Under the pieces are notes generated by a model. That model was given only the letters and a program-made list of their open reading frames with translations, was not told the DNA's origin and did no database searches. Of a stretch of 33,015 nt of DNA, positions 3,660 to 23,013 are shown one piece after another. Origin of the DNA: Bacillota bacterium. GTDB lineage: Bacteria > Bacillota > Sulfobacillia > JAJZYS01 > JAJYTV01. The position numbers were made by a program, and so were the translations under genes. The stretch spans positions 1-33,015 of the forward strand of contig JAJZQO010000025.1 of NCBI GenBank assembly GCA_021847575.1. The letters are read 5' to 3'. Position 1 is the first letter of the stretch, and every line of letters starts with the position of its first letter.

Positions 3660-4547
3660 CTAAGCCCGCATCTTGCGCAAGAGAGACGCGAACGAAAGCG
3701 ACGCGGGCGACTGGCGGTGCCCTTTGCCGTATGCCAGGAAGAATTGGCGCGGCAAGACCATGTCCCTACCTCTGACCCGCGCGATCAGGCCGGCCCGTTC
3801 TTCCGTCTGGATTGCAAGTTCCGAGACAAAGGCGATCCCACCGCCGGCCACCACTGCCTGCTTGATGGCCTCCGTGTCGTCGAGTTCCCACATGCTGAGG
3901 CCGTCCTTGAGGCCGCACAGTTCGCTGAACGCGTCGACTGCGGCGCGTTCGCAGCCGCCTGCTGGAGGCACGATGAGCCGCTCGCCCAGGAGGGCGCGGG
4001 GCTCCACGCTTGGCCGTCGTGCGAGCGGGTGATTCGGCCTGGCGATGAGCACCAGCCGGTCGCCCATACATGGCTCCAGGAAGAGGTTGCGGGGCACGAC
4101 GGGACCGCTGATCACCGCGAGTTGCACATCGCCGCGGGACACCGCATCTCCGATTTCTTGGACGCTGCCGATCATTAGGTGAAGCGTGACTCGCGGATGC
4201 TCGTTTGCGAACTGCACCATCGCCGGAGCCAGGAGATACCGGGCCGGCGTCGTGGTGGCAGCCAGACGCAACTGTCCAGCCTCAAGGTCTCGCAGTTCCC
4301 CGAGAGCGTCCTTCGCCTCATCCACCTGACGCAGGATATCCTGCGCATAGACGAGGAGACGCTCTCCTGCTTCCGTCAGTTCAGCCGAGCGGCGTCCGCG
4401 TGTGAATAGGGCGATTCCGACGGACGCCTCCAGAGCCTCGATCTGCCGCGACACGGCGGACTGGCTCAGGGAGAGTCTGCGTGCGGCCCCCGAAAAGTTG
4501 CGGCAATCCGCAGCCGCGACGAATGTCTCAAGCTGGTGGAGATCCAA
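3660..4547 (-). CDS. LysR-type transcriptional regulator
   Basis: A 295-residue LTTR of standard length. The N-terminal winged helix-turn-helix is clear: MDLHQLETFVAAADCRNFSG, then ARRLSLSQSAVSRQIEALEASVG and LFTRGRRSAELTEAGE. A linker helix follows, then a periplasmic-binding-protein-like effector domain (LRLAATTTPARYLLAPAM, VQLAVISGPV, GGGIAFVSELA). It is transcribed away from selD with about 135 bases between the start codons, the classic arrangement for an LTTR that controls its divergent neighbour. The effector is unknown; given the downstream genes a sulfur- or selenium-linked signal is a reasonable guess, and several CysB/CysL/CbbR-type members answer to such metabolites. Confidence 0.92.
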   Translation of the reverse strand: MDLHQLETFVAAADCRNFSGAARRLSLSQSAVSRQIEALEASVGIALFTRGRRSAELTEAGERLLVYAQDILRQVDEAKDALGELRDLEAGQLRLAATTTPARYLLAPAMVQFANEHPRVTLHLMIGSVQEIGDAVSRGDVQLAVISGPVVPRNLFLEPCMGDRLVLIARPNHPLARRPSVEPRALLGERLIVPPAGGCERAAVDAFSELCGLKDGLSMWELDDTEAIKQAVVAGGGIAFVSELAIQTEERAGLIARVRGRDMVLPRQFFLAYGKGHRQSPASLSFASLLRKMRA

Positions 4548-4575
4548 ACGGCTCCCCCCTTAGCAGTCGCAGTGT

Positions 4576-4644
4576 GCCATGCGGCAAGCGCAATAGTGAC
4601 ATGCGATAGTTGCACCGCCATCATAGCACCACCTGGGGTACACT
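4576..4644. promoter_or_regulatory. Candidate LysR operator/promoter region between the regulator and selD
   Basis: The divergent gap holds a perfect TGCC-ATGC-GGCA dyad (4576-4587), which fits the T-N(11)-A style of LTTR recognition sites. CATGCG occurs twice (4578-4583 and 4600-4605), 22 bases apart, about two helical turns. A possible -10 for selD is TACACT (4639-4644), but no good -35 lies 16-18 bases upstream, as is common in LTTR-activated promoters. Seen by eye only; binding is inferred. Confidence 0.35.
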
Positions 4645-4683
4645 CTCACCAATTCACCACAGCCGCCGAGGGGGGACCTTCCT

Positions 4684-5730
4684 GTGGGAGTCCTGCCAGA
4701 GATTCGATTGACTTCCTACTCGCCTGGTTCGGGCTGAGCCTGCAAGGTCGGCCCGCACGACCTGGCGCAGGTTCTGCGCCACCTTACGCCTCCCAAGGAC
4801 CCCATGTGGCTTGCGAGCATCGGCGACGATGTGGCAGCGCGCAAATTGACGGACGACCTTGCCATCGTGCAGACGATCGACTACATCACGCCGGTGCTCA
4901 ACGATCCCTATCTCTTCGGTCAGGTGGCCGCCGCCAACGCGCTGAGCGACATCTATGCGGTCGGCGCCCAGCCGTCCTTCGCCCTGAACCTCGTCGGCTT
5001 CCCGGTGCGCAGCCTGCCGCTCGGGTATCTCTCCGAGATCCTTCGCGGTGGAGCGGACAAAGCCCGTGAGGCCGGAGTCGAGATCGTCGGCGGACATACC
5101 GTCGACGATCCAGGACCGAAGTACGGGATGGTCGTCACGGGATTCGCGCACCCGCAGCGTCTGATCCGCAAGTCCGGCGCACAGCCGGGGGATGCGTTGT
5201 TCCTCACGAAGCCGCTGGGGGTCGGTGTGCTCACGACAGCGCTCGACCAGCGCCTCGCCAGCGTGGATCTTGAGGGGCTGGTGTTGCCGGTGATGCTCCA
5301 GCTCAACGCGGCGGCCGCCCGGGCGATCGAGCGCGTCGGCGCTCGCGCCTGTACGGACGTCACTGGATTCGGCCTCCTCGGCCACCTGCATGAGATGGCT
5401 TGGAAGAGCGGCCTCAGCGCGCGTGTACACTTGCCTGCCGTCCCGATTCTCCCGGCTGCGCGGCGCTTTGCAGCGCGCGCCATCTCGACGGGAACGCAGA
5501 ACAATCTGCGCCACTTGCAGCGATGGGTGGACTGGCCCGAAGAGGCGCCAGACGAAGATCGGGTTCTGCTCTCCGATGCCCAGACCTCCGGCGGGCTTGT
5601 GATCGCAGTCGCGACGGAGAAGCGGGATGCGCTGAGGGCCGCCTTGCAAGAGGAAGGGTGCCTCACCTGGGCGGAGATCGGGTGCCTGGAGTCGGGAGGT
5701 GCGGGCCACATCACCGTGCTTGCGCAGTGA
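4684..5730 (+). CDS. selD: Selenide, water dikinase (selenophosphate synthetase), predicted selenoprotein with in-frame UGA
   Basis: Makes selenophosphate from selenide and ATP, the Se donor for Sec-tRNA and seleno-tRNA. From ATG 4804 the protein lacks its catalytic N-terminus. Read upstream in the same frame, the sequence continues perfectly as SelD: LTSYSPGSG, then TGA (4735-4737), then ACKVGPHDLAQVLRHLTPPKDP. The TGA occupies the place of the essential Cys of E. coli SelD (Cys17 before Lys20); here Sec18 is followed by Cys20 and Lys21. GTG 4684 is chosen as start: GAGGGGGGA (4668-4676) lies 7 bases ahead, giving 348 residues, the family length. Further motifs are TDDLAIVQTIDYITPV, ANALSDIYAVGA, EIVGGHTVDDP, DVTGFGLLGHL and SDAQTSGGL. 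It is the first gene of the LysR-linked cluster, 45 bases before the desulfurase gene. Confidence 0.9.
4738..4772 (+). promoter_or_regulatory. Putative bacterial SECIS hairpin of selD
   Basis: Directly after the in-frame TGA (4735-4737) the mRNA can fold into a two-part hairpin. The lower stem is CCTGC (4739-4743) with GCAGG (4767-4771). The upper stem is AGGTCG (4745-4750) with CGACCT (4758-4763), closing a 7-base loop GCCCGCA. Bacterial SECIS elements sit immediately 3' of the UGA inside the coding region and are bound by SelB. Position and size fit; bacterial SECIS sequences are poorly conserved, so this is structural evidence only. Confidence 0.65.
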
Positions 5731-5775
5731 TGCGTCGCGTGCCAATACCTGTTTGAGCGCAGCGGAGGCGAATGC

Positions 5776-6936
5776 ATGGGGGTCCCGATCTACCTCGACT
5801 ACAACGCCACGACTCCTGTGGATCCGCGCGTGCGGGCGGCGATGCTGCCGTTCCTCGGCGACCAGTTCGGCAATCCATCAAGCACCCACGCGTTCGGCCG
5901 CTTCTCTTGGGCCGCGCTGGAGCGTGCCCGTCGTCAGGTCGCGGACCTCCTCGGATGCGCATCGGAGGAAGTCATCTTCACCAGCGGCGGCAGCGAGAGC
6001 GACAACCTCGCGATCCAGGGGGTCGCTTTCGCGAACCGCGCGCGCGGGCGGCACATCGTGACATCGACGGTCGAGCATCCGGCGGTGATCAACACCTGCA
6101 GGTATCTCGCGGAGCAGCACGGGTTCGATGTGACCTATGTCGACGTGGACCATCATGGCCGCGTCGACCCCGCAGCGGTGATCCACGCCATCCGGCCCGA
6201 AACGGTGCTGATCAGCATCATGCAGGCCAACAACGAAACCGGCACGATCCAGCCCATCGCGGAGATCGCCGGCATCGCGCGCGCGGCGGGCGTTGCATTC
6301 CATAGCGACGCCTCCCAGGCGGTCGGCAAGATCCCGACGCGGGTCGCAGACCTGGGCGTCGATCTCCTCACGATCGCCGGCCACAAGCTCTATGCTCCGA
6401 AGGGGATCGGTGCCCTCTACGTGAAAGGAGGCGTCGAACTCCAGCCGATCATCTATGGCGGCGGTCAGGAGCGCGGTCTGCGGGCCGGTACGGAAAACGT
6501 CCCTTACGCGGTGGCCCTCGGCGAGGCCTGCAAGGTGGCAGCGCAGGTCCTGCCGGCGGAGGAGGGGCGCCAGCGCGCGCTTCGTGACCGCTTGCATGAG
6601 ATCCTGGCCGATCAACTCGGCGGGGTGCTCCTGAGCGGCCATCCCCTGGAGCGCCTTCCCAATACGCTCAACCTGAGCTTCCAAGGGGTGATCGGTAGCG
6701 ATCTCCTCGATGAGGTGCCAGAGATTGCCTTCTCTACGGGCTCGGCGTGCCACGCGGGCAGCGCCGCGCCATCGCCGGTGCTCGCACAAATGGGACTCAG
6801 CACGGATGTCGCGCTAGGCGCCGTCCGGCTCAGCATTGGCCGCTACACCACAGAGGCGGAGGTGGACGAGGCCGCACGTCACATATTACGAGGGGTTCGC
6901 AGCTTGCGCCGGCGATCCGAGAGCCCCAGGGAATGA
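5776..6936 (+). CDS. NifS/IscS-like cysteine desulfurase, selD-associated
   Basis: PLP enzyme that strips sulfur (or selenium) from cysteine (or selenocysteine) onto an active-site Cys. A 386-residue group I desulfurase: IYLDYNATTPVDPRV at the N-terminus, TSGGSESDNLAI, STVEHPAVINTC with the PLP-stacking His, NNETGTIQP, SDASQAVGK, and AGHKLYAPKGIGALY with the Schiff-base Lys204. The active-site loop STGSACHAGS holds the catalytic Cys325. The start ATG 5776 follows GGAGG (5764-5768). Lying 45 bases after selD, it could deliver Se to SelD or load the DsrE-like carrier downstream. There is no iscU or thiI neighbour, which argues against a general Fe-S or tRNA role. Confidence 0.88.
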   Translation: MGVPIYLDYNATTPVDPRVRAAMLPFLGDQFGNPSSTHAFGRFSWAALERARRQVADLLGCASEEVIFTSGGSESDNLAIQGVAFANRARGRHIVTSTVEHPAVINTCRYLAEQHGFDVTYVDVDHHGRVDPAAVIHAIRPETVLISIMQANNETGTIQPIAEIAGIARAAGVAFHSDASQAVGKIPTRVADLGVDLLTIAGHKLYAPKGIGALYVKGGVELQPIIYGGGQERGLRAGTENVPYAVALGEACKVAAQVLPAEEGRQRALRDRLHEILADQLGGVLLSGHPLERLPNTLNLSFQGVIGSDLLDEVPEIAFSTGSACHAGSAAPSPVLAQMGLSTDVALGAVRLSIGRYTTEAEVDEAARHILRGVRSLRRRSESPRE

Positions 6937-6967
6937 TGAGGCAGCTGTTCGGAAGGGGGTGATCTGG

Positions 6968-7612
6968 ATGCGCAAAGGCGCGTGGCTCGGAATGGTCATG
7001 CTCGTGGTTGGAGTTGCCGGTCTTACCTTCGCAACGGCCAGGTCACTCCCGTTCTTGCCGCGCGGTAGCCATTTGACCGGATCCGATGCGATGGGCGGGA
7101 TGATGGGGACGTTCCTTTCGGGGGCGCAGGTCCCGCGCATCACGCGCGCCGAGGCGGTGGCGCTTGGCAATGAGGTGCCACTTGGGGCGAGTGCCGATCG
7201 CGGCAGGAACCAACTTGTATTTCGGACGAGCGTGGTTCGCCTGACGATCCTCGCGAGCCCTCCTTGGGGCAAGGACATGACCTTCCGCGTGGCTGGCCTC
7301 ACCAACCCCACGATCGTCGTGCCGCAGGGCGCCCAGGTACGCGTGGAGTTCGTCAACCCCGACAACGACACGAGCCATGGGTGGCTGGTGTCGTCCGCGC
7401 TACCGCCCTTCCGCTACATGGCCATGATGGGTACGCCACCTGCGTTCCCTGGCTCCTTCGCTCCACCGCTCGGGGAGTCTTACGGCGGGGGCATGCCGAG
7501 CGAGACGATTACCTTCCGGGCGAGTGCGTCGGGCCGCTACACCTACCTTTGTCCAGTCCCTGGGCATGCGCAGCGAGGGATGTATGGAGTGTTCGTCGTG
7601 GCCCCTTCGTAG
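6968..7612 (+). CDS. Membrane-anchored/exported cupredoxin, rusticyanin/sulfocyanin-like
   Basis: A 214-residue blue-copper protein. An N-terminal hydrophobic segment (AWLGMVMLVVGVAGLTFA) after a basic start acts as signal peptide or anchor, so the copper domain faces outside. The C-terminal half is the cupredoxin fold: NPTIVVPQGAQVRVEFVNPD, SHGW with the His137 ligand, and TYLCPVPGHAQRGMYG supplying Cys195, His200 and Met205, the spacing C-x4-H-x4-M of type 1 sites. The overall layout resembles rusticyanin. ATG 6968 follows a strong GGGGGTGATC. Its place in the cluster suggests it accepts electrons from a sulfur-oxidising step or passes them to a terminal oxidase; this is inference. Confidence 0.82.
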   Translation: MRKGAWLGMVMLVVGVAGLTFATARSLPFLPRGSHLTGSDAMGGMMGTFLSGAQVPRITRAEAVALGNEVPLGASADRGRNQLVFRTSVVRLTILASPPWGKDMTFRVAGLTNPTIVVPQGAQVRVEFVNPDNDTSHGWLVSSALPPFRYMAMMGTPPAFPGSFAPPLGESYGGGMPSETITFRASASGRYTYLCPVPGHAQRGMYGVFVVAPS

Positions 7613-7678
7613 CGGGGCCGCACGGCGGCGGGGGATCGACAAGAATACCAGTCTCAGGAAAGGTGGGGCCACATCCAA

Positions 7679-8029
7679 ATGAACGTGCTGCTCATCCTGA
7701 ACGACCCGCCCTACGGCACCGAACGCACCTACAACGGGATGCGCCATGCGATTGCACTCAGCTCGCGTGACGACGTGCAGGTTCGGGTCTTCCTGATGGC
7801 GGATGCCACGCTCTCCGGCAAGAAAGGTCAGAAGGTGCCCAACGGCTACTATTTCCTGGAACGCATGCTGGGTGCCGCCGTCCGGCGTGGAGTGGAGATC
7901 GGCGCTTGCGGCACCTGCCTCGACGCGAGAGGGCTCGCGGAATCCGAGATGATCGAGGGCGTACACCGGAGCTCCATGGAGGAACTGACGGATTGGACGC
8001 TCTGGGCGGACAAGGTCATCGTCTACTAG
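7679..8029 (+). CDS. DsrE/TusD-like sulfur-carrier protein
   Basis: A 116-residue DsrE/F-fold protein: LLILNDPPYGTERTYNGMRHAIAL at the start, VQVRVFLMADA, a flexible middle with LSGKKGQKVPNGYYFLERML, and GVEIGACGTCLDARG containing Cys77 and Cys80. In DsrE/TusD relatives the Cys in this loop carries a persulfide. Family members relay sulfane sulfur between enzymes in the cytoplasm. It sits between the cupredoxin and the SQR-like gene, so it is a likely partner for sulfur (or selenium) released by the desulfurase or the flavoprotein. GAAAGGTGG lies about a dozen bases before ATG 7679. Confidence 0.85.
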   Translation: MNVLLILNDPPYGTERTYNGMRHAIALSSRDDVQVRVFLMADATLSGKKGQKVPNGYYFLERMLGAAVRRGVEIGACGTCLDARGLAESEMIEGVHRSSMEELTDWTLWADKVIVY

Positions 8030-8054
8030 GACCAGGGAGCAGGAGGGACGTGCA

Positions 8055-9209
8055 ATGTCCGACAAGACGGCTATCGTGCTGGGTGGGGGAGTGGGTGGCG
8101 TCGTTGCGGCAAGCCACCTGCGGCGATTGCTCCCCCAGGAGGATCGCATCGTTGTGATCGAGCGCTCGGGACGCCACGTATTCTGGCCGTCCCTCCTCTG
8201 GCTCATGACCGGCACACGGAAGGTCCAAGATGTTCAGCGCGACATCGCTGCCCTGAAACAGCCGGGCATCGACGTGTTGAAGCGCGAGGTAACGAGGATC
8301 GATCCGGGCACCTGCACCGTATATATGGGTGATGAATCGCTGCAGGGCGACGCGCTTGTCGTTGCGCTTGGGGCGCAGCTCGCGCCCGATCGGATTCCTG
8401 GGCTCAGCGAGGGTGGACACAACTTCTACACGGTGGAAGGGGCGGCGCACCTCTACGAGGATCTTCAGGCCCTGCGCGAAGGGCGTGTTGTCGTCCTGAT
8501 CGCCGGCGTGCCGTTCAAGTGCCCGGCGGCTCCCTACGAGGCCGCCATGCTGATCGATCACCTCCTTAGGAAGCGCGGTGTGCGCGACCGGGTGGAGCTG
8601 GAAGTCTGGGCCGCGGAGCCTGCCCCGATGGGGGTCGCGGGACCGGTTGTTTCACAGGGGGTAACGAATCTGGTCGCCGAGCACGCCATTGGCTACCATC
8701 CGAGCCGGCAGATCTCGAAGGTGGACGCCGCAAAGGGGCGCCTCCATTTTGAGAGCGGGGAAGAGGTCCCCTTCGACGTGTTGGCCGTCGTCCCGCCGCA
8801 TGTGCCCCCGGCCGTCGCGCAGGAAGCCGGGCTCACAGCACCGGGTGGCTGGGTAGAGATCGATCGCGAGTCCTGCGAGACGCGGTTCGAGAATGTCTTT
8901 GCCATCGGGGACGTCACCGGCGTGATGCTCGCCATGGGCAAACCTCTGCCGAAGGCAGGCGTGTTCGCGCACGCGCAGGCGGAGGCCGTCGCAAAGACCA
9001 TTGCAGCCAGATGGTCGGGTAAGGGTGAGGAAGGGCGGTTCTCAGGCAACGGCGAGTGCTTCATCGAGATGGGATCGGGCGTTGCCGGCTTCGCGCGCGG
9101 GAACTTTTATGCGGAACCTGCACCCGAGGTGAAGATGTTCCGCACCGGCCGCCACTGGCATGTCGCAAAGGTGGCGTTCGAGAAGAACTGGTGGCGCAGC
9201 TGGTTTTGA
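8055..9209 (+). CDS. SQR-like FAD-dependent pyridine-nucleotide-disulfide oxidoreductase
   Basis: A 384-residue flavoprotein. The N-terminal FAD-binding GGGVGGVVAASHLRR and the second FAD block FAIGDVTG(V) with KPLPKAGVFAHAQAE are intact. PFKCPAAPYEAAMLIDHLLRKRG carries Cys156, equivalent to the conserved active Cys of sulfide:quinone oxidoreductases; a second Cys335 (NGECFIEMGSG) could be its partner. A third N-terminal Cys used by some SQR types is absent. The C-terminus ends in aromatic residues (NWWRSWF), as in monotopic membrane-attached relatives. The start follows GGAGGG (8042-8047). It probably oxidises sulfide or a persulfide, passing electrons to quinone. Such genes are often found next to dsrE homologues in sulfur oxidisers. 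Confidence 0.83.
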   Translation: MSDKTAIVLGGGVGGVVAASHLRRLLPQEDRIVVIERSGRHVFWPSLLWLMTGTRKVQDVQRDIAALKQPGIDVLKREVTRIDPGTCTVYMGDESLQGDALVVALGAQLAPDRIPGLSEGGHNFYTVEGAAHLYEDLQALREGRVVVLIAGVPFKCPAAPYEAAMLIDHLLRKRGVRDRVELEVWAAEPAPMGVAGPVVSQGVTNLVAEHAIGYHPSRQISKVDAAKGRLHFESGEEVPFDVLAVVPPHVPPAVAQEAGLTAPGGWVEIDRESCETRFENVFAIGDVTGVMLAMGKPLPKAGVFAHAQAEAVAKTIAARWSGKGEEGRFSGNGECFIEMGSGVAGFARGNFYAEPAPEVKMFRTGRHWHVAKVAFEKNWWRSWF

Positions 9210-9439
9210 TGCGGCTTACAGAGTCGCAGACAACCACGCACAAGGTTCCGCACGGCGCGGCTTGGTGCTGACCACGCGGCAGCCAGGTGTTGGACACGGC
9301 CGCGGCGGTCAGCCGTTTGGCATGGTTCCGTCGGGCTCCGCAAACTCAGCGTAGTGCAGGCCTGACAAGCAGCCATCTTAATCGAGCGCGTCGAAGCAGG
9401 CTGGCGCCGACAACGGGTTGTTTTACGGGGGCTGGTGAT

Positions 9440-10093
9440 GTGATCCGCTCTGAGTCGTCCACGCAACGCGCAAGGCTGCCGAACCTCGGCATCACGGTTG
9501 AATGGCTCACAATCGCCTGGATGGTCGTTGAAGTTGGCGTCGGCATCCGAGCCGCCATTCTTTCGGGCAGTGTCGCCCTGATGGCCTTCGGACTGGACAG
9601 CGGGATCGAGATCGTGTCCGCCGGTGTCATGGTGTGGCGGCTTGGCATTGAACAACAGGGCGGCAATGTGGAGCGCGTCGATCATGCCGAACGTCGGGCG
9701 TCAACGCTGGTCGGATGGGGTCTGATGCTCCTTGCCATCTATGTCGTCGCGAGCGCCGCCTGGGGCCTTTGGCAGCGTAGCCAGCCCGAGCCGACAGCAC
9801 TTGGAATCGCCCTCGCCGCCGCCGCGGTGGTCGTCATGCCGGTCCTTGTCGGGGTGAAGCGCCATATCGCCGACAGAATCGGCAGTGCTGCGTTGCGTGG
9901 TGACGCCGCCGAAGGCGTGGTCTGCGCCTACATGGCGATCGTGCTTCTCGCCGGGCTGGTTCTGCGCGCTGCCTTCGGATGGTGGTGGGCCGATTCCATC
10001 GCTGCCCTCGGCATCGTGTACGTCATCGTCCGCGAGGGCCGGGAAGCTCTCAGCGAGGCACGGGCCGAGGAGGACGAGAGAGGTCTGAAGTAA
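9440..10093 (+). CDS. Cation-diffusion-facilitator-like membrane transporter
   Basis: A 217-residue membrane protein with five or six hydrophobic segments (VEWLTIAWMVVEVGVGI, GWGLMLLAIYVVASAAW, ALGIALAAAAVVVMPVLVG, GVVCAYMAIVLLAGLVL, WWADSIAALGIVYVIV). AFGLDSGIEIVSAGVMVWR matches the CDF helix that normally reads HxxxD/DxxxD, and ALRGDAAEGVVCAY is the second metal-helix equivalent with Asp and Glu. It lacks the cytoplasmic C-terminal domain of full-length CDF proteins. GTG 9440 is taken as start because GGGGG (9427-9431) lies 8 bases upstream; the frame's longer start at 9287 has no such site and would add non-membrane sequence. Substrate unknown. About 230 bases separate it from the SQR-like gene, so it may not belong to that operon. 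Confidence 0.75.
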   Translation: MIRSESSTQRARLPNLGITVEWLTIAWMVVEVGVGIRAAILSGSVALMAFGLDSGIEIVSAGVMVWRLGIEQQGGNVERVDHAERRASTLVGWGLMLLAIYVVASAAWGLWQRSQPEPTALGIALAAAAVVVMPVLVGVKRHIADRIGSAALRGDAAEGVVCAYMAIVLLAGLVLRAAFGWWWADSIAALGIVYVIVREGREALSEARAEEDERGLK

Positions 10094-15222: not shown

Positions 15223-16668
15223 TCACCGTTCCTTAGCCCCGGATGCCCCCGGCTTCAGCCGTGGGGAGGCAGGGGCGTACTCGAAACCATCTGCGAGGTG
15301 AATGAGGTTGCAATGCCGCCACGAGATGCCGTCCGCGCTGCCGACGCGGAACGAGCCGGCGGCGCGCACCCCGACGCGGCCGACGTGCAGTCCCACGTAC
15401 TTCCCTTTTGGCACCTCCGCCCGTACCAGGTCCCCAGTCCGAAAACCGAAGAACCGCTTTGCGCGCGGCGCATGGCGAATCGGAAAGCCGTGCCGGTCGG
15501 TGCCGCACCTCTGGCGCTTGCCGTGTCCTGTCGCCTTGATCTGCAACGCGGGCCCGGCATCCACCCTCAGTCCCGCCGGTGTCGACACCCCAACGCAGGC
15601 CGCGTCCAACCAATGCTCCTTCGGCAGGCCGAACCGTGTTCGGTTGAACTTGGTCAGGCCACCGCTACCGGCCTCGACGGGCAGGCCGATCTGAGAGAGC
15701 CGCCGCCAGAGCGCCCAGCGCGTCGCGTTGACCGCCGCCGCGTCCTTGAGCGGTGCCTTCGCCTGCGCCCGCACCCTGCCGCAGTTGGTGACGCGGACGA
15801 CATCGATCTCCTTCTGGCAGTCTTTGAGCGTCTGAGCCCATTCCTCCGGCGTGCGCCTGCCCTTCGCCTGGTTGCAGGTGTCGCAGGCGATCGCCAGGTT
15901 GGGCAAGCGATTGGTGCCGCCACGACTCTTCGGTGTCAAGTGCTCGACCTCGAGCACCGGATCTTGGGAGAGCCCGCCGCAGTAGGCACAAGTGTGACCG
16001 AACTTCAGGAGGAGGTACTCCTTCACCTCGTAGCCCGCGCGTTCGCCCTGCTGGTACTCGACGCCATGGATCTCGGAATTCTCGATCTTCTGCAGGTCGA
16101 AGCGCACCATCTCCGCCGAGATCGCCGCGACGGGCGCCAGGCGGCTCAGTCGTTTCGCCCAGGTCTCCACATTGGCCACCCTGCTCTCCAGCGACGGTGG
16201 CAGGCGGCGAGGCGGCGCCAACACCTCCGGGCGCTGACTCGCGTGCAGCCGGCAGGTTTTGTGCCCGTGCCGGGCGTTTCCGCCGCAAACGATGCAGGGT
16301 GCCGGATGCCTGTTCAAGAATCGGGGTGCCCGGTACCGGGCGTGCCGGAACCGGCGGCCCCGGCGCAGCGCCGCGCGGGCTACCATGCGGAGGTGGATTT
16401 GCTGGCCACGATGTTCGATCTCCGCGCCCCAGACGACGGTCGCCGTGCTTTCGTCCAGGATGGCAACACCTGTCATGCGGCTACCCGGATCGAGTTTGAC
16501 ACGGTGAGGATGGACGATGGAGTTCGCGACCTCACGATCCTTGAGGACGATCGTGAACGGCTGGTGGCAGAACACCGCCGCACGGCCCACCTTCAGCAGA
16601 TGGCGGGCCCGTGCTGGATGGCAGGGATCTAGTGGTTGCCGGTTCTTGTCCAGAACGAAGACTCGCAT
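15223..16668 (-). CDS. iscB: IscB, RNA-guided RuvC/HNH nuclease of the IS200/IS605 superfamily
   Basis: A 481-residue IscB, the ancestor-type relative of Cas9. In order: a PLMP-like start (QPLDPCHPARARHLLKVGRA), RuvC-I with Asp60 (VKLDPGSRMTGVAI), an Arg-rich bridge helix (RRGRRFRHARYRAPRFLNR), a zinc-like CIVCGG, RuvC-II with Glu186 (AISAEMVRFD), the HNH domain (CAYCGG, VEHLTPKSRGGTNR with His243, CDTCNQAKG) and RuvC-III with Asp355 (KEHWLDAACVG). All catalytic residues are present, so it looks active. The C-terminus (PRLKPGA) is encoded by the right-end repeat. ATG 16668 follows AGGAGG 8 bases upstream. No Y1 transposase is in the window, so mobility would depend on one elsewhere. Confidence 0.94.
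   Translation of the reverse strand: MRVFVLDKNRQPLDPCHPARARHLLKVGRAAVFCHQPFTIVLKDREVANSIVHPHRVKLDPGSRMTGVAILDESTATVVWGAEIEHRGQQIHLRMVARAALRRGRRFRHARYRAPRFLNRHPAPCIVCGGNARHGHKTCRLHASQRPEVLAPPRRLPPSLESRVANVETWAKRLSRLAPVAAISAEMVRFDLQKIENSEIHGVEYQQGERAGYEVKEYLLLKFGHTCAYCGGLSQDPVLEVEHLTPKSRGGTNRLPNLAIACDTCNQAKGRRTPEEWAQTLKDCQKEIDVVRVTNCGRVRAQAKAPLKDAAAVNATRWALWRRLSQIGLPVEAGSGGLTKFNRTRFGLPKEHWLDAACVGVSTPAGLRVDAGPALQIKATGHGKRQRCGTDRHGFPIRHAPRAKRFFGFRTGDLVRAEVPKGKYVGLHVGRVGVRAAGSFRVGSADGISWRHCNLIHLADGFEYAPASPRLKPGASGAKER
15245..15266 (-). repeat. IscB element right-end repeat
   Basis: A 22-base sequence with the imperfect hairpin CCCCCGGCTTCAGCCGTGGGG, here encoding the last residues of IscB. It matches the left-end copy at 16904-16925 in the same orientation with one mismatch. 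Such subterminal hairpins mark the ends of IS200/IS605-type elements. The true cleavage site should lie within a few dozen bases, near the response-regulator start. Confidence 0.65.
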
Positions 16669-16930
16669 TGAAACGGCCTCCTTACGGAGACAACTCGGCT
16701 TTCGCCGGTAAAGTGAGCCTCGCCGATGTTATCCGGGCTTGTCGTGTCCAGGACGCTGGCTTCGACCCCGTACGCCTGTTTGACCCTGGACGACAGAGCG
16801 GCAGGCTGGCTCGCGCACCCGCCGGTGTCGTAACCCGGATAACGTAGCCCGATGGTCCGAAGACCCTGGCTGGGGCTGGTCAACCCCGGACTTGCCTCAG
16901 CCGGCCCCCGGCTTTAGCCGTGGGGTGGTT
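16669..16930 (-). ncRNA. Putative omegaRNA scaffold of IscB
   Basis: IscB guide RNAs are transcribed from the region just upstream of iscB. This stretch has no gene but strong pairing: CCCGGATAAC (16834-16843) with GTTATCCGGG (16728-16737), a perfect 10-base long-range stem; GTCCAGG with CCTGGAC near 16746-16790; and a small CTCC-loop-GGAG hairpin (16678-16689) that also contains the iscB ribosome binding site. The guide would come from the flank beyond the left-end repeat, at about 16926-16950. Boundaries are approximate. Confidence 0.6.
16904..16925 (-). repeat. IscB element left-end repeat
   Basis: Second copy of the 22-base end repeat (core CCCCCGGCTTTAGCCGTGGGG), differing at one base from 15245-15266. 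It sits about 240 bases upstream of the iscB start, at the expected 5' edge of the element and of the omegaRNA scaffold. Confidence 0.65.
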
Positions 16931-17044
16931 GACTCCCCTGGGCGCAGCGTCAGCGGTGGCCGAGTGTACGGTTCGCGGCCCAGGGCGGCTCTCCCTGCGT
17001 GTCCGCGGCAGGCGTTGACGGCAGCAGAGGGGAATACCACCACC

Positions 17045-20456: not shown

Positions 20457-21499
20457 AAGGCGGCGCGGTTGCGCGGCGCGATTCCGGCGGCCCCGCCTGC
20501 GGGCGGGGCCGCTTGCGCCTGTGCGAGGAGCGTGCCCAGGATGCCCGCGAGGGCGTTCTGCTCCGCGAGGAACGCGTCGTGCCCCATCTCCGTCTCGAGC
20601 CGCGCCAGGCCACCGGGCACCCCGAGCATGCGCAAGGCCGAGTTCAGGGAGTTGACCGACTGTTCGGGGAAGAGCCAGTCGCGCTCGATCGAGACGAGAT
20701 CGATCCGCGTGTCCCGCCCGACCGAGAGATCCCAGGCGAAGTTCGCCATGGCGCGGCTGAGGAGCAGGTAGCTCCAGGCGGAGAACCGTTCGGCCAGGCG
20801 GTCGCCGTGATGGTCCAGGTAGCTCTCCACCGCGAAGCGGCGGCGACCGGCCGGAGCCGGGTTCCGGCCGAACCTCGCTTCGAAGTGGGGTTCGGAGCGG
20901 TAGGTGGCCATCGCGACGGCGCGCGCCGCCCGGAGGCCGCCTGCCGCGTCGCCGTGGGCGAGGCCGAGCTCGAGCGCGACGTGCTGCGCGTGGCAGAGAG
21001 CCACCTGCAGCGCAGGCAATCGGTCGGCGGCGCCGATCGCGATGGCGTGGCGGACGGGAAGCGTGTCCTGGCCTGACCAGGCGAGGGCCTGGAGCCCGCC
21101 GAGCGAGCCGCCGATGACGAGCGCCACGCGCTCGACGCCGAGTTGCACGAGGACGCGGCGCTGCGCCTCGACCATGTCGTCCACCGTGATCTCGGGGAAG
21201 GGGCGCCCGTCCGGCAGGAGCCCGTTCGGGTCAGGGCCCGTGCTGCCGTAGCAGCTGCCGATGACGTTCATCGCCACGACAAAACTGCGGTCCGTGTCGA
21301 TGACCTTGCCGGGGCCGACGATCTCCCGCCACCAGCCTTGGGCAGGGCCCCAGTCGGCGGGGTGCTGGTCGCCTGTGAGCGCATGGCAGATTAGCACTGC
21401 CTCGGGTCCTCTCTGGCCCCAGGTCTGGTAGGCGACGCCGGCGTCCGTGAGGCGCCCGCCGCGCGCAAGCGGCAGGTCGCCGATCGCTGCGCGCGGCAT
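20453..21499 (-). CDS. metX: Homoserine O-acetyltransferase
   Basis: A 348-residue alpha/beta-hydrolase acyltransferase that activates homoserine for methionine synthesis. Visible: VLICHALTGDQH (oxyanion side), FVVAMNVIGSCYGSTGPDP, the family marker; VALVIGGSLGGLQALAW with the nucleophilic Ser; the Asp in IERDWLFPEQ; and the His in ETEMGHDAFLAE, completing the triad. Start at ATG 21499 overlaps the metY stop by one base (TGATG), so the two are translated from one SAM-riboswitch-controlled mRNA. The C-terminal tail (AQAAPPAGGAAG) is encoded by a GC hairpin. Confidence 0.93.
   Translation of the reverse strand: MPRAAIGDLPLARGGRLTDAGVAYQTWGQRGPEAVLICHALTGDQHPADWGPAQGWWREIVGPGKVIDTDRSFVVAMNVIGSCYGSTGPDPNGLLPDGRPFPEITVDDMVEAQRRVLVQLGVERVALVIGGSLGGLQALAWSGQDTLPVRHAIAIGAADRLPALQVALCHAQHVALELGLAHGDAAGGLRAARAVAMATYRSEPHFEARFGRNPAPAGRRRFAVESYLDHHGDRLAERFSAWSYLLLSRAMANFAWDLSVGRDTRIDLVSIERDWLFPEQSVNSLNSALRMLGVPGGLARLETEMGHDAFLAEQNALAGILGTLLAQAQAAPPAGGAAGIAPRNRAAF
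20487..20512. terminator. GC-rich hairpin inside the 3' end of metX, possible terminator for the DUF1540 gene
   Basis: GCGGCCCCGCC (20487-20497) pairs perfectly with GGCGGGGCCGC (20502-20512) across a 4-base loop, 31 bases after the DUF1540 stop. On the + strand it is followed by only two T. It lies in coding sequence of metX on the other strand. Confidence 0.35.
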
Positions 21500-22776
21500 C
21501 AGGCGCGGCTCGCCGCGAGGGCCCCTTGCAGATCCTCCATGAGGTCCTGCGGATCCTCGAGGCCGAAGGAAAGGCGCACGAGGTCGTCGGGGACGCCGGC
21601 GAGCCGGCGCTCCTCGCTCGTGAGCTGTTGGTGCGTGGTCGTGGCGGGGTGGATCACAAGCGAGCGCGCGTCGCCCACGTTGGCGACGTGGGAAAAGAGC
21701 TTCAGCGCGTCGATGAAGCGTGGACCCGCCTCGACGCCGCCCTTGAGGCCGAACGTCAGGATGCCCGAGTAGCCGCCCTGCAGGTAGCGGTGCGCAACGG
21801 CGTGCGAAGGATGGTCCGCGAGACCCGGGTAGCTGACCCAGGCCACATCCGGCTGCTGCTGCAGCCACTCGGCGATGGTCAGGGCCGTCTCGGAGATGCG
21901 CTGCATGCGCAAAGGCAGGGTCTCGACGCCAAGGAGCAGCAGGTGCGCGTCGGCGGGGCTCAGGCATGAGCCGAGGTCGCGCAAGAGCTGAACCCTCGCC
22001 TTGATGATGTAGGCAAGGCTGCCGAATGCGTCGACATAGCGGACGCCGTGGTAGCTCGGGTCGGGCTCCGTCAGCTCCGGGAACTTCCCCTGCGTCCAGT
22101 CGAAGTGCCCACCGTCGACGATCACGCCAGCGATCACCTGGCCGTGTCCGCCGATGTACTTCGTCGCGGAGTGGATGATGATGTCGGCGCCGTGTTCGAA
22201 CGGACGGCAGAGGTAGGGGGTGGCGAACGTGTTGTCGACCACGAGGGGCACGCCGTGGCGGTGGCTCAGTTCCGCGATCGCGGCGATGTCGGCGACGTCG
22301 AGGCGCGGATTGCCGATGGTCTCGATGTACACCGCGCGCGTGCGCTCGTCGATCTCCCGCGCGAGTGCCTCGGGCGCCACGTCCGACGCAAGCTTCACCT
22401 CGATGCCCAGACGCTCGAACGTGCTGCGCAGCAGGTTGTGCGTGCCGCCGTAGAGGTTGGGCGCAGCGACGATGCGGTCGCCCGCCCTGGCCAGGTTAAG
22501 CAATGCGAGCGTGATCGCCGCTTGCCCGGACGAGGTGGCCAGCGCGCCGACACCACCTTCGAGGGCTGCGATCCGCTCCTCGAAGACGGCGGTCGTCGGG
22601 TTCATGATCCGGGTGTAGATGTTGCCGAACTCCTCCAGCGCGAACAGCCGGCCGGCGTGCGCGGTGTCGTGGAAGGCGTAGGATGTCGTGCGGTGGATCG
22701 GCACCGCGAGCGAACCGGTCGTCGGGTCTGGCTTCTGGCCGGCGTGCAGCGCCAGCGTCGCGAATCTCTGTGCCAA
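21499..22776 (-). CDS. metY: O-acetylhomoserine sulfhydrylase (aminocarboxypropyltransferase)
   Basis: A 425-residue Cys/Met-metabolism PLP enzyme that makes homocysteine from O-acetylhomoserine and sulfide. Motifs: [95 protein letters not shown], and [16 protein letters not shown] with the PLP Lys. TTG 22776 is the start: AAAGGAGA lies 7 bases upstream, whereas a longer frame would extend back through the riboswitch terminator. First gene of the metY-metX operon; expression is set by the SAM-I riboswitch. Confidence 0.94.
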
Positions 22777-22805
22777 GGATCCGTCTCCTTTCGGTCCTGG
22801 CGAAA

Positions 22806-22831
22806 CAAAAAATGCGCCTGAGGGCGCATGC
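22806..22831 (-). terminator. Intrinsic terminator of the metY leader
   Basis: On the minus strand ATGCGCC-CTCA-GGCGCAT (plus 22812-22829) is followed by a run of six T. It sits between the SAM-I aptamer and the metY ribosome binding site, the expression platform expected for transcriptional control: SAM bound, the terminator forms. Confidence 0.85.
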
Positions 22832-22844
22832 TGTTCGCTGACCC

Positions 22845-22952
22845 TCTTATCTCTCAACCCGGAGCTCCCGGGTTGCAGGAATTGGCACCGACGGCGCGTA
22901 GCGCCCGGTTGCCGGGTTTCATTGGGCCAGTCCCTCCACCTCTCGCGATAAC
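22845..22952 (-). ncRNA. SAM-I (S-box) riboswitch
   Basis: The minus strand carries the S-box consensus in order: TTATCGCGAGAGGTGGAGGG (5' P1 side and start of P2), ACTGGCCCAATGAAACCCGGCA, GGTGCCAATTCC and a closing GAGAGATAAG whose GATAA pairs with TTATC to form P1. These are the conserved core bases of SAM-I aptamers. It is followed by the intrinsic terminator and metY. High SAM should switch metY-metX off. Confidence 0.95.
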
Positions 22953-23013
22953 AGGTACTTATGCAGTTGTCGAAACGGCTACGGCGGTGCCTCCTCTCGT
23001 GGATATTGACGCC

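Follow-up and report, generated by a model that had tools for sequence, protein, structure and literature searches.

We analysed a stretch of 33,015 nucleotides from a Bacillota genome (the window; contig JAJZQO010000025.1 of assembly GCA_021847575.1), in which a gene for selenide, water dikinase (SelD) heads a row of five genes on the plus strand. Here selD (4684-5730) is followed by nifS (5776-6936), which encodes a group-I cysteine desulfurase or possible selenocysteine (Sec) lyase, a rusticyanin-like gene (6968-7612) for a membrane-anchored or exported blue-copper protein (cupredoxin), dsrE (7679-8029) for a YchN-like single-domain protein with a CGTC motif, and a gene (8055-9209) for a flavoprotein that resembles sulfide:quinone oxidoreductase (SQR) and carries Pyr_redox_2 and FCSD_central domains. 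A LysR-type regulator gene (lysR, 3660-4547; Pfam HTH_1 and LysR_substrate) lies divergently from selD on the minus strand. Gaps of 45, 31, 66 and 25 bp, in that order, separate the five genes; a search of 4400-9500 detected no terminator-like sites. An earlier note on this DNA had described the same five genes, with the same coordinates, in line on one strand, and this holds; it was silent on the Sec codon of selD, the paralogous status of the SelD and the origin of the cluster from two modules.

The selD product scores 350.8 bits against TIGR00476 (curated cut-off 125) and is predicted to produce selenophosphate. Its start codon is GTG (4684), and a full-length product requires the in-frame TGA at 4735-4737 to encode Sec, which as residue 18, in the motif SYSPGSGUACK, takes the place of the catalytic Cys; both the catalytic Sec and the Lys of the N-terminal loop are present (GUACK). 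The TGA is retained in two other genomes of the family (G002 and G004), in the three loci of a second Bacillota group (group 2; L131, L175 and L181) and in other members of the SelD clade described below, among which L267 (G408) has Cys. The window genome also encodes selB and tRNA-Sec (68.7 bits; gathering score 47). A candidate bacterial Sec insertion sequence (SECIS) hairpin, TGGCGCAG-GTT-CTGCGCCA, is located at 4763-4781 on the plus strand with its loop 33 nt past the TGA; its 8-bp stem is retained in three genomes and the local fold has a predicted energy of -13.6 kcal/mol (z -2.7). The Rfam scan for SECIS at selD gave no match and a longer, 60-nt fold favours an overlapping alternative; because of this competing fold the hairpin is a SECIS candidate only.

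The cluster SelD is a paralogue distinct from the ordinary selA-selD copy of the family. In a tree of 44 SelD sequences it falls within a clade of 19 LysR-linked Bacillota SelDs (support 100/99), far from the clade of core selA-selD copies (100/100), and group 2 is placed as its sister group (90/89; node not starred). The selA-selD locus is present in most family genomes, and in both G002 and G004 another SelD coexists with the cluster SelD; selA adjoins it in G002, and on the short G004 contig that carries it no selA was seen. In the window genome neither selA (HMM, hidden Markov model, search) nor a second SelD was found. Contig C28 of this genome ends inside selA, and for this reason the core selA-selD locus probably falls in an assembly gap; since relatives also have selA-selD, we do not take the cluster SelD to be the sole SelD of the genome.

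Gene neighbourhoods set this clade apart. At all 19 clade loci lysR lies within 4 kb of selD, directly divergent at 18 of them (at L216 an apparent transposase gene lies between), and a DsrE-type gene was found at 15, nifS at 11, SQR at seven and selA at none. The 23 non-clade SelD loci compared, which come mostly from the window genome's family or from clade genomes, have selA in 14 cases and nifS, dsrE or SQR in none, with the limitation that tblastn with clade-derived queries may miss distant NifS or DsrE at these loci. Moreover, at least two SelD matches were found in 14 of 15 clade genomes vs 16 of 248 other SelD genomes in a 398-genome sample of the phylum (Fisher p = 3e-14, a value that overstates independence because the genomes are related). 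The only clade genome with a single match is the window genome, with its assembly gap. The multi-SelD counts may contain split genes (G369, G387 and G401, weak E-values), and their removal would only make the contrast stronger. Beyond the clade, one further Sec-containing SelD of the family (L113, G007:C59) adjoins an apparent permease pair. Within the LysR-linked set, at L220 and L222, selD-dsrE is followed by nitrate-reductase-gamma-like and HdrD-like genes, which suggests a redox partner in the membrane that differs from SQR.

The top NCBIfam model for the cluster LysR is NF040786, "selenium metabolism-associated LysR" (182.5 bits, equivalog cut-off 250); four further selD-linked LysRs also score below the cut-off on this model (195-235 bits), and the orthologues in G002 and G004 match at 70-74%. 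LysR_Se is known to adjoin selA, selB or selD (Lin et al. 2015, PMC5322559). The cluster LysR resembles it in adjoining selD and in its top model, but it scores under the cut-off, and the SelD that it accompanies is a paralogue whose genomes mostly encode another SelD as well. The divergent promoter region (4548-4683) contains two weak sigma70-like matches and the block GTTGCACC-CATCATA-ACC-TGGGGTACACTC, which is conserved in the aligned intergenic regions of three genomes. A single LysR may control the row.

NifS scores 466 bits against TIGR03402 (equivalog cut-off 530.75), has the active-site loop STGSACHAGS, and in the NifS tree it clusters with NifS of selD loci, apart from NifS of most SQR loci. 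DsrE (116 aa) matches PF02635 (78.7 bits), with no other domain, and the YchN structure 1jx7 (E 5.7e-27). In Enterococcus faecalis selD is clustered with genes for the class-V lyase EF2568 (SclA) and a SirA/DsrE (YedF) protein (PMC2432076, PMC13188914), and the triad of functions in the window (selD, a class-V pyridoxal-phosphate lyase and a DsrE-domain protein) matches EF2566-EF2568 (PMC2432076). The cluster SelD might, by analogy, serve another use of selenium, such as the labile selenium cofactor of molybdenum hydroxylases or selenouridine. We consider this very unlikely: the lyase is of the NifS/IscS type and scores low on the EF2568 model (152.8, cut-off 377) as well as on the SclA Sec lyase model NF040779 (110.2 bits, cut-off 525), the single-domain DsrE lacks the SirA domain of YedF, and XdhC, YqeB, YqeC and YbbB were not noticed beside the loci read (no genome-wide search for them was made). 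A further difference from the E. faecalis set is that the SelD here is a Sec-containing accessory copy, accompanied by SQR and a cupredoxin.

The SQR-like protein has the GGGVGG motif of the FAD (flavin adenine dinucleotide) fold, and in alignments with SQOR and bacterial SQR structures its Cys156 and Cys335 fall on the KC and SC cysteines that form the redox pair of SQOR; it is predicted to reduce quinone with sulfide. Its nearest NCBIfam model, NF049943 (SQR_III_seleno), represents a described selenoprotein SQR family, the type III subtype (PMC13188914), but the cluster protein reaches only 227.8 bits (cut-off 525) and has Cys in place of Sec. When correctly framed rows were compared (L013 and L014 were left out), Sec of the TGA-bearing homologues L052, L057 and L069 aligned with Cys335; there is no in-frame TGA in the cluster gene, and the idea that the SQR-like protein is itself a selenoprotein was rejected. 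Fusions of SelD to an NADH-dehydrogenase-like flavoprotein, and NifS-SelD fusions, are on record (PMC2432076, PMC4561486). They likewise tie SelD to a flavoprotein with two dinucleotide folds or to NifS, whereas in the window the genes are separate and the SQR-like flavoprotein, which has two redox Cys, gives only 65 bits on the Nterm_to_SelD flavoprotein model (cut-off 310). The window genome has two more SQR paralogues on contigs C60 (L046) and C133 (L047), each in line with TusA-like and DsrE-like genes. The cupredoxin scores 81.8 bits against TIGR03095 (rusticyanin; equivalog cut-off 146.7) and matches rusticyanin structures (E 2.7e-13); alignment to 2cak showed that its type-1 copper ligands are present, in the C-x4-H-x4-M loop YLCPVPGHAQRGM and as the upstream His in SHGW.

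The cluster recurs in the same order in two family genomes, with all genes in G004 and, in G002, with an internal deletion that has left only remnants of the N and C termini of the cupredoxin. The ratio of nonsynonymous to synonymous substitution rates (dN/dS) is 0.06-0.25 for the cluster genes, which are under purifying selection; this and the shared order speak against a chance arrangement. No close SQR orthologue was found in the other seven family genomes searched, several of which are incomplete. GC content at third codon positions (GC3) is 0.75-0.83 in the cluster, lower than the 0.90-0.91 of three genes elsewhere in the window. In G002 and G004 the search of the cluster's surroundings did not detect murD, cdf or typA. 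Together, the GC3 contrast and the absence of these neighbours in relatives point to acquisition as a unit, and the stretch was probably acquired horizontally. A gene for a CDF-like transporter (9287-10093, plus strand; PF01545, 52.6 bits) may also belong to the acquired stretch: its GC3 of 0.71 is the lowest of the stretch, unlike host genes, and homologues occur near SQR in L134, L175 and L178, with none beside the cluster in G002 or G004.

The gene set was also found in group 2, arranged differently, and the order is therefore not an oddity of a single genome. In this group selD-nifS lies opposite lysR, a DsrE of the type found at selD loci, a methyltransferase and SQR; in L175 a SHOCT protein and a cupredoxin also lie on the selD-nifS side. 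The cupredoxin is present in one of three group-2 loci and deleted in G002 and is therefore dispensable: the rusticyanin-like gene that the earlier note had added to the system is there, but it is not a constant part. The claim that the cluster is a real, conserved one uniting selenium and sulfur chemistry is borne out.

The cluster appears to have arisen when a LysR-SelD-NifS module was joined to a DsrE-SQR module, because its NifS belongs to the selD lineage and its DsrE and SQR are of the type that occurs at dsrE-sqr loci lacking selD in Bacillota, Chloroflexi, Proteobacteria and Actinobacteria. Such modules, for example in Sulfobacillus and Chloroflexi, are similar to the cluster in DsrE (about 50-77%) and SQR (about 48-61%) and differ in having no adjoining selD or selenium-type LysR; several have an ArsR-rhodanese regulator, which precedes or lies near dsrE/sqr in L072, L133 and L160. 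Because the SQRs of the window family fall into a single clade with those of group 2 (99/95), one joining event, followed by rearrangement and exchange of DsrE, would be the simplest history. A third locus, L225, combines lysR, selD and DsrE with a distant SQR-like gene (28%); in a Muproteobacteria locus (L160) SQR stands beside, and convergent to, selD-selB-selA, an adjacency that may be due to chance.

The same distribution bears on the possibility that the row is a sulfide/persulfide oxidation operon, in which NifS, DsrE and SQR would generate and carry sulfane sulfur while electrons pass to quinone and blue copper, and LysR-SelD would be a passenger that brought the promoter and performs ordinary selenophosphate synthesis. 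It would fit the dsrE-sqr loci of Chloroflexi, Proteobacteria and Actinobacteria, their ArsR-rhodanese regulators, and the nifS-dsrE-sqr loci that lack selD in Sulfobacillus, Alicyclobacillus and others. The NifS of these last loci, however, is of a different lineage (the main groups are split with support 100/100, and one actinobacterial row, L166, falls on the selD side), and the cluster nifS is of the selD-locus lineage. Also, SelD and SQR remain together in the sister group despite its rearrangement, and the SQRs linked to SelD group in a clade by themselves. Presence of SQR was not significantly linked to presence of SelD in the phylum sample (18/23, Fisher p = 0.15), which also counts in favour of a sulfur operon. 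Co-occurrence of the SQR clade with SelD at the genome level (28/36) was rejected as evidence, given this p value and the background of 262/398. On balance we judge a pure sulfur operon unlikely, though the most serious of the alternatives.

Detoxification of selenide or selenite has also to be weighed; here SQR would oxidise selenide to Se(0), DsrE would be the carrier, SelD would clear the remainder as selenophosphate and LysR would sense excess selenium. The S-adenosylmethionine (SAM) methyltransferase between the selD-type DsrE and SQR in L131, L175 and L181 would suit selenium methylation, but its best models are generic or corrinoid-linked. A metal- and sulfide-rich habitat of this acid-mine-type lineage, as deduced from relatives (Sulfobacillus and similar records), would agree with such a role. 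The cluster has no gene for selenium export or reduction, and SQRD-1 has no role in selenite tolerance of worms (PMC7052493); this explanation seems to us improbable.

What we tentatively favour, at slightly less than an even chance, is that the row constitutes an accessory, separately LysR-regulated operon for selenophosphate supply, which would act alongside the housekeeping selA-selD, served by a NifS and DsrE relay of its own and extended by sulfide oxidation. NifS would strip selenium or sulfur from Sec or Cys to give protein-bound perselenide or persulfide, DsrE would take this up on its CGTC cysteines and pass selenium to the Sec-containing SelD, and SelD would turn it into selenophosphate. 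SQR would oxidise sulfide, either released by NifS or competing with selenide, with electrons going to quinone; it could also supply sulfane sulfur to the same DsrE, and the rusticyanin-like protein would be an optional electron acceptor. In favour of this proposal are the SelD score and Sec motif, the additional SelD of G002 and G004, the placement in the SelD tree, the neighbourhoods and SelD counts of the clade, the top model of the LysR, and the grouping of NifS and of SQR with their selD-linked counterparts. Moreover, E. coli NifS-like proteins deliver the selenium from which selenophosphate is made (Lacourciere 2000, as cited in PMC4561486), and NifS is fused to SelD in some proteins (PMC4561486). 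Several points weigh against the proposal. The core selA-selD of the window genome was not seen and is only placed in the gap by inference; four of the 19 clade loci lack both nifS and a DsrE-type gene (tblastn); the LysR, NifS and rusticyanin models all score under their equivalog cut-offs; C. elegans SQRD-1 mutants have no selenite phenotype (PMC7052493); and DsrE-SQR occurs without adjacent selD in many genomes, with or without the other NifS lineage, so that the role of SQR and DsrE may be confined to sulfur. That SQR and DsrE act on selenium, with SQR oxidising selenide or seleno-persulfide and loading DsrE, which would hand protein-bound selenium to the accessory Sec-SelD, is in our view improbable; if true, selenophosphate synthesis would be tied to the respiratory chain and protected from sulfide. 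The selenium oxidation or sorting function suggested by the earlier note is not supported in that form by the sequence comparisons.

Elsewhere in the window, a HEARO RNA (130 bits; 16708-16933, minus strand) lies beside an HNH-type open reading frame (ORF) of 481 aa (15223-16668, minus strand), by position an IscB/IsrB-like (OMEGA) arrangement; the ORF is presumably a member of the IscB/IsrB-like family. A SAM riboswitch (85 bits; 22844-22954, minus strand) is located directly upstream of a minus-strand ORF (21499-22857) resembling genes of Cys/Met metabolism.

The links of SelD to flavoproteins and to DsrE that the earlier note had mentioned are published (PMC2432076, PMC4561486, PMC5322559). 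Its view of an undescribed system stands in part: associations like the core of LysR, selD, class-V lyase and DsrE have already been described, but the paralogous, LysR-linked SelD and the SQR/cupredoxin extension were unreported in the literature searched on duplicated selD or SelD with SQR, which is weak evidence as most subscription papers fell outside the search. A survey from 2005 knew a single prokaryote with two selDs (PMC1273633), and according to a 2026 review the form of selenium used by SelD in vivo and its donor system are incompletely elucidated (PMC13188914). This recurrent arrangement, in which an additional SelD is paired with a NifS and a DsrE of its own and with a LysR regulator, names testable candidates for selenium donors. 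Finally, since 14 of the 15 clade genomes in the sample have this paralogue, which usually contains Sec, in addition to another SelD, the question arises why these bacteria would need two.

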